Assembly: GCA_017964345.1 (NCBI GenBank)
Contig: JAGCSD010000195.1
Span: 1 to 10,278 of the forward strand
Reading direction: 5' to 3'
Length of the DNA stretch: 10,278 nucleotides
Origin: Clostridia bacterium
GTDB taxonomy: Bacteria; Bacillota; Clostridia; Christensenellales; QALW01
The notes beneath the pieces were generated by a model, which had not been told where the DNA came from, did no database searches, and saw nothing but the letters and a program-made list of their open reading frames with translations. This document shows positions 441 through 8,205 of the stretch, piece by piece. Within the stretch, counting starts at the first letter, position 1. Each line of letters begins with the position of its first letter. A program made the position numbers and the translations under genes.

Positions 441-637
441 ACGCTGCCCTATGCGGTGGAGCAGCTGTGCCTGTCGGCACGAAACGGTATGAAGCGGAAG
501 GTTGCTGCTTACAGGCAGGTAATTTCCGTGGACAAATGTCCGAACCGATCGGACGAACGGCCGAATACACCGCCGCTTAAAATTTTATGAGCGGCACACA
601 CGGAACAGTGTATTTGAGCCAGTAAGGAGGTAACAAT
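441..637 (+). promoter_or_regulatory. Structured 5' leader RNA of the S10 operon
   Basis: This leader of about 195 bases has several pairings. The segment 459-465 can pair with 504-510, enclosing a hairpin GTGCC/GGCAC (467-471/476-480) with a 4-base loop. GTCCGA (538-543) pairs with TCGGAC (549-554), or alternatively GTCC (538-541) pairs with GGAC (530-533); these exclude each other. The segment 562-570 pairs with 608-616 over 9 positions, including one G-T, and encloses GCCGCT/AGCGGC (572-577/590-595). The AAGGAGG of rpsJ (624-630) follows this last helix. In E. coli the S10 leader binds L4 for feedback control. A similar role here is inferred from position only, because I cannot match the fold to a known family. 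No convincing intrinsic terminator or leader peptide was seen. Confidence 0.55.
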
Positions 638-946
638 ATGGCATCGCAAAAAATCAGAATCAAGTTGAAGGCCTATGATCACAATCTGATCGATCAGTCG
701 GCCGCCAGGATCGTGGATACCGCGGTCAAAACCGGCGCTTCGGTCAGCGGACCGATTCCGCTGCCCACCGAAAAGGAAGTCATTACGATTCTTCGCGCTC
801 CTCATAAATATAAGGATAGCCGGGAACAGTTTGAACTTCGTACGCACAAGCGGCTGATCGACATTTACAATGCCGGCAGCAAAACGGTGGACGCGCTGAT
901 GAAGCTTGACCTCGCCGCCGGCGTGGACATCAACATCAAACTGTAA
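638..946 (+). CDS. rpsJ: 30S ribosomal protein S10
   Basis: This is the first gene of the operon and encodes 102 residues, the normal length. The protein begins [20 protein letters not shown] and contains the S10 signatures VSGPIPLPT (about 37-45) and [16 protein letters not shown] (about 66-81). S10 binds 16S rRNA in the head of the small subunit; the same protein acts as NusE, pairing with NusB and NusG in antitermination. The ATG is preceded by AAGGAGG at 624-630 with 7 bases of spacing, directly after the leader helices. The next gene starts 12 bases after its TAA. Confidence 0.97.
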
Positions 947-958
947 GGAGGAAGAACG

Positions 959-1594
959 ATGATGACAAAAGGTATTTTGGGTAAAAAGGTCGGCATGACG
1001 CAGATCTTTGCGCAAGATGGCACGGTAGTTCCTGTAACAGTCGTTCAAGCCGGTCCCTGCCCCGTTGTGCAGATCAAAACGGTGGAAAAAGACGGTTATG
1101 ACGCCGTTAAGGTCGGTTTTGGCGCCATTCGCGAACAGAACGTCAACAAACCCGACAAGGGACAGTTCACCAAAGCAAACGTTCCCGTCGCCCGGTTCAT
1201 GAAAGAATTCCGTTTCGACAACACGGCGGATTACAAGGTCGGCGATACCATCGCGTGCGACATCTTTGCCGCGGGCGACAAGGTCGATGTGACCGCGAAG
1301 AGCAAAGGACACGGCTTCTCCGGCGTGATCCAGAAGTGGAATCAGCATACCGGTCCGATGGCACACGGTTCCGGAAGCCACCGCGTGGTGGGTTCCATGG
1401 GCGCCAGTTCGTAGCCCAGCCATGTGTTCAAAAATAAACACATGCCCGGTCATTGGGGCAACGAGCAGGTAACCGTACAGAATCTTGAGATCGTGCGCGT
1501 GGACAGCGAACGCGGCGTGATCCTGATCAAAGGCGCGGTTCCCGGCGCGGCAGGCGCGCTGCTTACCGTAAAGCAGTCCGTCAAGAGTAAGTAA
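959..1594 (+). CDS. rplC: 50S ribosomal protein L3, interrupted by an in-frame TAG
   Basis: L3 binds 23S rRNA near its 3' end, starts large-subunit assembly and reaches toward the peptidyl transferase centre. The frame opens [17 protein letters not shown] and runs through [15 protein letters not shown] and [11 protein letters not shown] to a TAG at codon 152. It then continues in the same frame with [19 protein letters not shown] and [19 protein letters not shown] to a TAA at 1592-1594. The total of 211 codons matches the usual L3 length. The two halves join exactly at a variable loop, so there is no frameshift or lost segment, only one nonsense codon. Read as a stop it would leave 151 residues without the last quarter of the protein. 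The in-frame ATG at 1442 has no ribosome binding site, so a restart is unlikely. ATG at 959 (AAGGAGG 945-951, spacing 7) is preferred to the ATG at 962. Confidence 0.93.
1412..1414 (+). other. In-frame amber (TAG) codon inside rplC
   Basis: The codons read GCC AGT TCG TAG CCC AGC CAT. From general memory, clostridial L3 proteins often carry GASS, one variable small or polar residue, then PS at this place. The TAG therefore replaces a single tolerated residue. One base change from TCG (Ser), CAG, TAC, TTG, TGG, AAG or GAG would produce it. The base following the codon is C. Confidence 0.9.
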
Positions 1595-1608: not shown

Positions 1609-2229
1609 ATGCCGAGAGTAAACGTTTATAACATAGAAGGCGAAAAGGTCGGCACGGTCACGTTGAACAAAGAGATCTTTGAGGTTGAAGTCAACCCGCA
1701 CGTGCTTCACACCGTGGTGCGCGCCCAGCTCGCCAACAAGCGTCAGGGCACCAAGGGCACGCTCACGCGCACCGAGGTCGCCGGCGGCGGCAGAAAGCCG
1801 TTCCGTCAGAAGGGTACCGGTCGTTCCCGTCAGGGTTCCAGCCGTTCCCCGCAATATTACAAGGGCGGCGTGGTGTTCGCGCCCAAGTCCCGCGATTTCT
1901 CCATCACCGTTCCGCGCAAGGTCAAGCGCCTGGCGCTCAAGGGCGCGCTTTCCAGCAAAGTCAGCGATAAAGACCTGATCGTGCTGGATTCGCTGGAGAT
2001 CGAAGCCAAAACCAAGGCGATGGTCAAAGTGCTTGCCAACTTGAAAGCAGAGGGCAAGGTATACATCGTCAACGAAGAACCCGCAGTGAATGTGGAGAGA
2101 GCAGCCGCCAACCTTCCCGGCGTCAAGACGGGGCTGGTCGGCACGCTCAACGTGGTGGATATTCTGAACCACGACAAGCTGATCCTCACCAAAGCTGCGC
2201 TGAAAAAGCTTGAGGAGGTTTACGCATAA
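1609..2229 (+). CDS. rplD: 50S ribosomal protein L4
   Basis: The 206-residue product has the normal L4 length. The long loop that lines the nascent peptide tunnel carries [20 protein letters not shown] (about 59-78), the family hallmark. It is followed by [20 protein letters not shown]. In E. coli L4 also represses the S10 operon by acting on its leader RNA, which makes it the first candidate ligand for the leader at 441-637, although that is untested here. The start is ATG with AAGGAGG at 1593-1599, overlapping the TAA of rplC. The last base of its TAA is the first base of the rplW ATG, a one-base overlap consistent with translational coupling. Confidence 0.97.
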
Positions 2230-3754: not shown

Positions 3755-4150
3755 ATGGCTAAAAATATCAGAGAAAAAGCGGCGGCACGCAAGGAAAACC
3801 GCGACAGAAGACCGAAGGCGATTGCCAAATACATCCGTATTTCCTCCCGTAAGGTACGCATCGTGATCGACCTGATCCGCGGCAAGCAGGTGGATGAGGC
3901 GCTGGCGATCCTGCAGTTCACGCCCAAGGCGGCTGCGCCGGAAGTCGCGAAGGTTCTTTCCTCCGCAATAGCCAACGCGGAGAACAATCCTCCGTATCTG
4001 CATCGTGACAACCTCTATGTCGCGGAGGCGTACGCCAACCAGGGTCCCACGCTGAAGCGGTTCATGCCCCGCGCCAAGGGCAGCGCTTCTCCGATCCTGA
4101 AGCGTTCGAGCCACATCACGGTCATCCTGGATGAGAAGAAGGAGGATTAA
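3755..4150 (+). CDS. rplV: 50S ribosomal protein L22 with a basic N-terminal extension
   Basis: L22 binds 23S rRNA and sends a hairpin into the peptide exit tunnel, where changes can give macrolide resistance. The core starts at [20 protein letters not shown] (about 21-40), continues with [10 protein letters not shown] and ends in the hairpin region [20 protein letters not shown]. At 131 residues it is longer than the roughly 110-115 usual for the family. The extra length is a charged N-terminal segment, [20 protein letters not shown]. The start is supported by AAGGAGG at 3741-3747 with 7 bases of spacing, and no binding site precedes an internal start, so the extension appears real. The end carries the binding site for rpsC. 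Confidence 0.96.
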
Positions 4151-6485: not shown

Positions 6486-7025
6486 ATGGCCAGATTAAAA
6501 GACAAGTACATTAGCGAGATCGTTCCCGCTTTGCGCGAGAAGTTCGGCTATCAGAACATTATGCAGGTTCCCAAACTGGAAAAAGTCGTTATCAACGTCG
6601 GTTTAGGCGATTTGAAGGACGACGCCAAGAAGTTTGACGCCGCGGTTCAGGAAATCGCCCTGATCAGCGGTCAGGCGCCTGTGGTAACGAAGGCTAAAAA
6701 GTCCGTTGCTAACTTCAAGGTCCGTGAGGGCATGAATATCGGCGCGAAGGTCACCCTGCGCGGCGAAAGAATGTATGAGTTTGTGGATAAACTGCTCAAC
6801 ATCGCGCTTCCGCGCGTGCGTGACTTCCACGGCGTTTCCGCCAACGCTTTTGACGGTCGCGGCAATTACGCCTTGGGTATCAAGGAGCAGTTGATCTTCC
6901 CCGAGATCGAGTACGATAAGATCGATAAAGTACGGGGAATGGATATCATTTTTGTGACTACGGCAAGATCCGACGAGGAAGCCCGCGCCCTTTTGGGATT
7001 GATGGGTATGCCCTACGCCAACTGA
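6486..7025 (+). CDS. rplE: 50S ribosomal protein L5
   Basis: The 179-residue product is standard length. It has the motifs [17 protein letters not shown] (about 30-46), [20 protein letters not shown] (about 111-130) and [18 protein letters not shown]5 carries 5S rRNA into the central protuberance with L18 and contacts the P-site tRNA and S13/S19. Two purine-rich binding sites stand before it, CGGAGG (6467-6472) and TAAGGAG (6474-6480); the second has only 5 bases to the ATG. In E. coli the S8 repressor site lies at this junction, but I could not see a clear copy of that fold here. Confidence 0.97.
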
Positions 7026-7042
7026 GGGAGGAGGACGGAAAC

Positions 7043-7228
7043 ATGGCAAAGACATCAATGAAGATCAAACAGCAAAGACCTGCGAAATTCTCTACCCGCG
7101 CTTATACGCGGTGCAGTATTTGCGGTCGTCCTCATGCCGTTCTGAGCAAATACGGCGTTTGCCGCATCTGCTTCCGTGAACTGGCATACAAAGGTCAGAT
7201 TCCCGGCGTGAAAAAAGCCAGTTGGTAA
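7043..7228 (+). CDS. rpsZ: 30S ribosomal protein S14, type Z (zinc-binding)
   Basis: The 61-residue protein is the short S14 form common in Firmicutes and other Gram-positives. Four cysteines at 24, 27, 40 and 43 (CSIC and CRIC) form the zinc site, and the C-terminus [17 protein letters not shown] is typical. S14 binds 16S rRNA in the head of the small subunit. Having the zinc form inside the main operon means this organism's primary S14 needs zinc. Many relatives keep a cysteine-free paralog elsewhere for zinc starvation, which cannot be judged from this window. Confidence 0.97.
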
Positions 7229-7248
7229 CAGGAAGGAGGAACACAAAC

Positions 7249-7647
7249 ATGGTTTTAACAGATCCTATCGCGGATATGCTCACCAGAATCCGCAACGCCA
7301 TGGTAGCAAGACATACCACGGTCGATATTCCCAAATCCAAGATCAAGCAGTCCATTGCACAGCTCCTTCTGGATGAAGGCTACATCAAGGGCGTGGAGCT
7401 GATCGACGAGGCGCCTCAGGGAACCATCCGTATTACGCTGAAATACGGCGCCAACAAAGAAAAGATCATTTCCGGTCTTCGCAGAATTTCCAAGCCCGGC
7501 TTGAGAGTGTATGCCCGTGCGGAGGAGCTTCCCCGCGTGCTGGGCGGCATGGGGGTTGCCATTATCTCCACGTCCAAGGGCGTTATGACCGACAAGCAGG
7601 CGCGCGCGCTGAATATCGGCGGCGAAGTTCTGGCGTACGTCTGGTAA
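7249..7647 (+). CDS. rpsH: 30S ribosomal protein S8
   Basis: S8 is a primary 16S rRNA binder (central domain) and in E. coli the translational repressor of the spc genes. The 132-residue product starts [18 protein letters not shown] and has the C-terminal signature [20 protein letters not shown]. The internal segment [19 protein letters not shown] is also typical. ATG 7249 follows AAGGAGG (7233-7239) by 9 bases. A longer frame beginning at 7222 would overlap rpsZ and lacks support. Confidence 0.97.
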
Positions 7648-7662
7648 GAAGGAGGAACGATT

Positions 7663-8205
7663 ATGTCAAGAATAGGGAAGCAATCTATCACTATTCCCGC
7701 CGGCGTCACCGTTTCGGTCGCTGACGGCAACGTGGTTACTGCCAAAGGTCCCAAGGGAACCACCACGCAGCAACTGGCCAAGGACATGACGATCAAGGTC
7801 GACGGCAACACCGTAACGGTGGAGCGTCCGTCCGACGATAAAGACCATCGCGCACTGCACGGGTTGACTCGCACGCTGCTGCATAACATGGTCATCGGCG
7901 TTTCCGAAGGCTTTTCCAAGAGCCTGGTGATCCAGGGAACCGGTTACCGTGCGACGATGCAGGGAAAAAAGCTCGTGCTGACGCTCGGCTTCTCTCACCC
8001 GGTGGAAATGGAAGCACCGGAAGGCGTGACGATCGAGTGCCCCTCGCAGACCAGCATCGTGATCCACGGTGCCGATAAGCAGGTGATCGGTCAGTTTGCC
8101 GCGGAAATCCGCGGCGTCCGTCCGCCTGAACCGTATCACGGCAAGGGTGTCCGCTATGAGGGCGAGCATGTCGCACTCAAAGAGGGCAAGTCCGGTAAGA
8201 AGTAA
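7663..8205 (+). CDS. rplF: 50S ribosomal protein L6
   Basis: The 180-residue protein has two similar alpha/beta domains. The first starts [19 protein letters not shown]. The second contains [20 protein letters not shown] and the conserved C-terminal [16 protein letters not shown] from residue 153. L6 binds 23S domain VI near the sarcin-ricin loop and the factor-binding site. It has AAGGAGG at 7649-7655, 7 bases before the ATG, and sits 15 bases after rpsH in the standard spc order. Confidence 0.97.

Follow-up and report, generated by a model that had tools for sequence, protein, structure and literature searches.

Natural or laboratory nonsense suppressors occur alongside isolated in-frame stops in genes that the cell needs, with the release factors still in place, and UAG is known to encode pyrrolysine in methylamine methyltransferases. 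Stop codons can also look like sense codons where the code is unchanged: in the portion of Shulgina and Eddy (2021; PMC8629427) drawn on here, apparent stop-to-sense codons were attributed to pseudogenes with in-frame stops or to contamination, and the pseudogene cases were yeasts in which a suppressor tRNA was not found. Here we set beside these systems a TAG inside rplC, the gene for ribosomal protein L3, in an uncultured Clostridia bacterium. Reasoning from sequence, we hold that this TAG is very probably a single-base consensus error in a low-quality metagenome-assembled genome, and the data do not support recoding or a new genetic code.

The stretch of DNA analysed (10,278 nucleotides, hereafter the window) is the S10 ribosomal protein operon of this bacterium and spans contig C133 of the draft genome, G000, from end to end. 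The draft amounts to 1,022,296 bases (1.02 Mb) in 204 contigs, with a completeness of 73.3%, and among named genomes its nearest relatives are two metagenome-assembled ones, RGIG5434 (from sheep colon) and SIG404. Two congeners, G001 and G002, served for close comparison. The features in and around the interrupted gene are:

638..946, + strand: rpsJ, intact, upstream of rplC
959..1594, + strand: rplC (ribosomal protein L3, uL3), 211 codons plus TAA, broken by one in-frame TAG
959..1411, + strand: upstream part of rplC, 151 residues, with a TIGR03625 match
1412..1414, + strand: in-frame TAG, codon 152 of rplC, serine in both congeners
1415..1594, + strand: downstream part of rplC, 59 residues plus TAA, with a TIGR03625 match and an in-frame GTG at 1424
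1609..2229, + strand: rplD, intact, downstream of rplC, with a normal start at 1609

Re-reading the frame bore out a preliminary description of this DNA on the position of the TAG, in frame and at codon 152 of the L3 gene, and on the integrity of the frame to either side. From the ATG at 959 to the TAA at 1592–1594 the frame is open except at codon 152, and the NCBIfam model TIGR03625 (L3_bact, 202 positions) covers both halves, with positions 1–147 before the stop and 150–202 after it. The 59-codon downstream part is indeed L3, as had been proposed, and its terminal TAA lies ahead of a normally starting rplD. The interrupted rplC has 87% and 85% identity to its counterparts in the two congeners, and a search of G000 for a second copy returned this one match only. 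From rpsJ to rplO the window has 20 other complete ribosomal genes, all of them open; 16 end in TAA, 4 in TGA and none in TAG.

L3 was matched in 56 of the 60 relatives searched, and 55 of the 56 matches cross codon 152; the other, in G053, is limited to residues 168–210. No internal stop was reported in the 55 matches that cross the codon, and in G019, the sole relative flagged as having a TAG inside, the TAG is the final codon of its own L3. An alignment of relatives over this loop, a check suggested in the preliminary description, gives a sense codon in the relatives, with serine at the equivalent of codon 152 in 23/23 of the closest database proteins; a single substitution separates TAG from a serine codon. 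The accompanying claim that almost any residue would be tolerated here was too broad: the 145 proteins listed by two L3 searches have only Ser (96), Asp (33), Thr (14) or Asn (2) at this site. The closest listed database L3 has 91% identity, and no intact L3 of the same species was seen in this database, which is clustered at 90% identity. Among 120 listed matches to the truncated form there was no truncated L3 of 151 residues, in a database where a rare truncated allele could sit hidden within a cluster. In one relative, contig JAFUKM010000006.1 (L090) ends within rplC, two bases past the codon aligned to 152, which is probably a coincidence.

The window holds several other features. A match to the Rfam S10-Clostridia ribosomal protein leader (RF03136) lies at 481–556 (+ strand), the expected site ahead of rpsJ, and its score of 35.3 bits is barely above the gathering score of 35.1. 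An antisense open frame of 366 codons (509–1609, − strand) runs opposite rpsJ and rplC; it was rejected as a gene, as it has no Pfam family and the same strand of G001 has several stops. Antisense ORFs of this kind disturb simple gene scans. At the contig edge, an open frame of 118 codons (2–355, − strand), divergent from the operon, has no Pfam family either. Codon 114 of rplB (2950–2952) encodes Val in a near-invariant column where the other loci covering it have Asp, which may be another base error within this contig or else a real change.

The comparison beyond rplC used 70 pieces of G000 (350,555 bases, about a third of the genome, with ~1.3 kb counted twice in two overlapping loci). These were 60 whole contigs sampled at regular intervals, contig C92, part of C135, the window, and seven loci on six further contigs that came with tRNA matches. 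They were compared against ORFs from G001 (60 stretches, 1,098,051 bases) and G002 (20 stretches, 382,689 bases), and 163 places at 50% identity or more yielded 41,483 aligned G000 codons. As a control, G001 and G002 were set against each other by the same comparison (48,577 and 48,404 codons). Conserved genes in the 70 pieces contained five in-frame stops in total (four TAG, one TAA and no TGA):

Window 1412, + strand: TAG in rplC
Contig C31 of G000 (L118), position 3979: TAG in ispH-rpsA
Contig C109 of G000 (L144), position 2487: TAG in ftsK, in the linker between the membrane and motor parts
Contig C1 of G000 (L108), position 1410: TAG in a solute-binding protein gene
Contig C139 of G000 (L193), position 1099: TAA in pyrB

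A fixed rule, which demanded an alignment of no fewer than 150 columns with the stop 20 or more columns away from both ends, returned five stops in 36,115 codons of G000, the same five as had been picked by inspection; the 89,078 codons of the two congeners gave 0 once the antisense ORF L168_246_986 was set aside. This ORF, on the strand opposite the ribosomal operon, contains two stops and gave the sole congener rows that pass the rule. With full counts, the difference between G000 and the congeners has a Fisher p of 0.0024. Since the stops occur in G000 and none in the congeners, the anomaly belongs to G000 and not to the lineage, and it is specific neither to rplC nor to TAG. On average, an unexplained in-frame stop turns up about once in 7,000–8,000 conserved codons of this draft. 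The residues that relatives carry at these sites differ, being Ser in L3, Tyr in PyrB (G001), Lys in the solute-binding protein (G001 and G002) and mostly Tyr in IspH; because both the residues and the type of stop vary, one new codon meaning fails to explain them. In ftsK, which has a single match in G000, one FtsK protein continues through both sides of the TAG. No gene split by a frameshift was reported in the homology-placed gene scan of G000.

The raw scan had produced more stop rows, 10 in G000 and 22 in the two congeners, most of which are short or antisense ORFs, and the “INTERNAL” flag alone fails to separate the genomes (6/10 rows in G000 vs. 9/22 in the congeners). Four INTERNAL rows were retained for G000 together with the FtsK row, which was flagged “edge” and falls in a poorly aligned linker. 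The remaining G000 rows (L142 177, L042 1509, L042 1359, window 579 and window 437) were rejected as short ORFs, tRNA overlaps or positions upstream of genes, and inspection led to the rejection of all 22 congener rows, which were short ORFs, ran antisense to the ribosomal operon or lay ahead of a start codon. L125 2782 (45.7% identity), where the TAG stands immediately before the start, was also left out, as were L205 4794 and L205 4761. A reference-free coding scan picked 15 stops in G000; the raw figure for G001 was 33. Three of the known interruptions are among the 15 (L108 1410, L193 1099 and L118 3979), and the scan missed rplC 1412 and ftsK 2487. Eight of the other 12 were rejected: in seven an ordinary gene stops and the next one begins, and L193 4843 was probably read in the wrong frame. 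At L144 3972 ftsK itself ends, and at L115 1507, L138 518 and L113 148 another frame scores higher.

One of the five sites can be read against a nearly identical protein. The ispH-rpsA gene (L118 2354–4483, − strand, contig C31) encodes a fusion of IspH with ribosomal protein S1 that belongs to the bifunctional family NF000907, and its read-through product is identical to the database protein P0146 (710 residues) at 709/710 positions, the sole difference being Tyr at the TAG. P0146 is encoded on a contig 10,104 bases long and the G000 gene on one of 6,445 bases, so the two contigs are different. The 34 nearest proteins have Tyr (19, P0146 included), Phe (10), Trp (4) or Val (1) at this site. 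The tyrosine of P0146 is the strongest single result of this study. In principle it could come from a gene caller reading TAG as Tyr; against such an origin, the relatives also have Tyr, and no routine pipeline for bacteria is known to us to make that call.

Error had been put forward in the preliminary description as the simplest reading, and it gains support from the TAA among the extra stops and from the TAG that is Tyr in P0146. Stops of mixed type in one assembly, absent in the congeners and in one case absent from P0146, point to base errors rather than a code change. The rplC stop would share its origin with the other G000 stops, and codon 152 in the living cell would probably be a sense codon, serine in the relatives, within an ordinary full-length L3. 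Uniform random substitution with this codon usage is expected to give 45% TAG, 40% TAA and 15% TGA, a prediction of mixed stop types that the observed stops fit, and the chance of at least four TAG in five under such substitution is 0.13. If all five stops were random substitutions, the implied error rate would be about 1.1e-3 per base, which should bring about 21 missense changes per stop. Radical unique amino-acid changes, compared over 10,244 columns in 35 genes, are mildly raised in G000 (42/1,252 vs. 28/1,247 in the congeners; p = 0.11). In the 235 near-invariant columns of five ribosomal genes, unique changes number three in G000, none in G001 and one in G002, and 3 or 4 unique changes in these columns also occur in several more distant genomes. 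The G>T/C>A damage signature shows no excess, with 15/210 single-base changes in G000 vs. 21/169 in the congeners. The mild rise in missense changes, the lack of a damage signature and the lack of frameshift splits either give no help to the error reading or count against it.

In the decoding apparatus nothing unusual is apparent. Full-length RF1 matches the prfA equivalog model (497 bits vs. a cut-off of 423); RF2, which the contig start truncates, scores as prfB. Both contain GGQ, and the recognition tripeptide is PVT in RF1 and SPF in RF2, all of which we take to be release-factor motifs. Of 104 gene ends placed by homology in G000, 50 are TAA, 47 TGA and 7 TAG, and one gene that we take to be ruvA terminates at TAG directly ahead of what is presumably ruvB. 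There are 17 tRNA matches in G000 vs. 41 in each congener. No stop-reading tRNA (CUA or UUA included) is among the 16 typed of these 17 in the 73% complete genome, and none is among the 25 and 12 typed in the fetched parts of the congeners. PylS is above the cut-off in none of five genomes (G000 to G004, G000 being incomplete), the weak matches in G001 and G002 reaching 21.7 and 22.8 bits vs. a cut-off of 178.15. The preliminary description had held that a genome with a normal RF1, no CUA tRNA and conserved genes free of further in-frame TAG codons would refute recoding. The first of these was found, as was the second for the 16 typed tRNAs of an incomplete genome; the third was not, for G000 has three more TAGs and one TAA in such genes.

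Next to base error, the stops could be genuine nonsense mutations private to the cells sampled, from a decaying or dead lineage or from a mixture with broken copies. We consider this very unlikely, although the assembly alone cannot separate a mutation from an error and P0146 differs solely at the stop. At least five genes would be interrupted in a third of the genome, among them those for L3, IspH-S1 and FtsK, which are generally required for growth. No intact second copy was found, rplC and ftsK having one match each in G000, and no frameshift splits were reported.

A natural suppressor tRNA, either amber or of an ochre type reading both UAG and UAA, might instead be encoded in the unassembled part of the genome and insert a residue at the stops. 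The five stops are all TAG or TAA with zero TGA, as an ochre suppressor requires, and in a genome that is 73% complete, with 17 tRNA matches vs. 41 per congener, such a tRNA could be missing. Yet the 16 typed tRNAs include none that reads a stop, P0146 has Tyr at the IspH-S1 site and is identical elsewhere, and TAG and TAA are used normally as terminators. Partial suppression would presumably also be costly, as every ribosome needs L3. That an uncultured member of the Clostridia carries an ochre-type suppressor and keeps UAG and UAA in essential genes, rplC and ftsK among them, with RF1 and RF2 continuing to terminate its genes normally, is a remote prospect in our judgement, as is a suppressor of either type. 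If true, it would mean a bacterium that naturally keeps stops within ribosomal protein genes, which would surprise specialists.

The two forms of recoding raised in the preliminary description, reassignment of UAG to sense in the lineage and insertion of pyrrolysine, fit the fact that 4/5 stops are TAG and are otherwise strongly disfavoured; we give them almost no credence. Against reassignment, prfA is intact, TAG still terminates genes (e.g. ruvA before ruvB) and no CUA tRNA is among the 16 typed in the incomplete genome; against pyrrolysine, PylS is under the cut-off in 5/5 genomes searched. Relatives carry sense codons, TAA is also involved, and no single residue suits all sites. Hardly conceivable, finally, is an L3 made in two pieces by restart at the GTG shortly past the stop (1424), or made by programmed readthrough, given that by eye no Shine-Dalgarno-like sequence precedes this GTG, the RNA structure of 1400–1510 is unremarkable (z = −1.13), relatives spanning the site lack the stop, and the 120 listed matches include no 151-residue L3.

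Base error in the draft is the best reading of the rplC stop, and it carries a caution: when recoding is claimed from a single gene in an assembly like this one, the whole genome must be compared with close relatives as a control. Pyrrolysine-coding genes resemble this case in having an in-frame UAG in a Clostridia-type genome, but no PylS is above the cut-off here and the sites in G000 are not methylamine methyltransferases. Nonsense suppressors are matched in that G000 has isolated stops in needed genes together with release factors; unlike them, G000 has no suppressor tRNA among those found, and one of its sites is sense in the otherwise identical P0146. The cases in the part of PMC8629427 considered above are alike in that in-frame stops there, and very probably in G000 too, mimic recoding without a new code; whereas pseudogenes or contamination were held responsible there, the source proposed here is base errors in a draft assembly.
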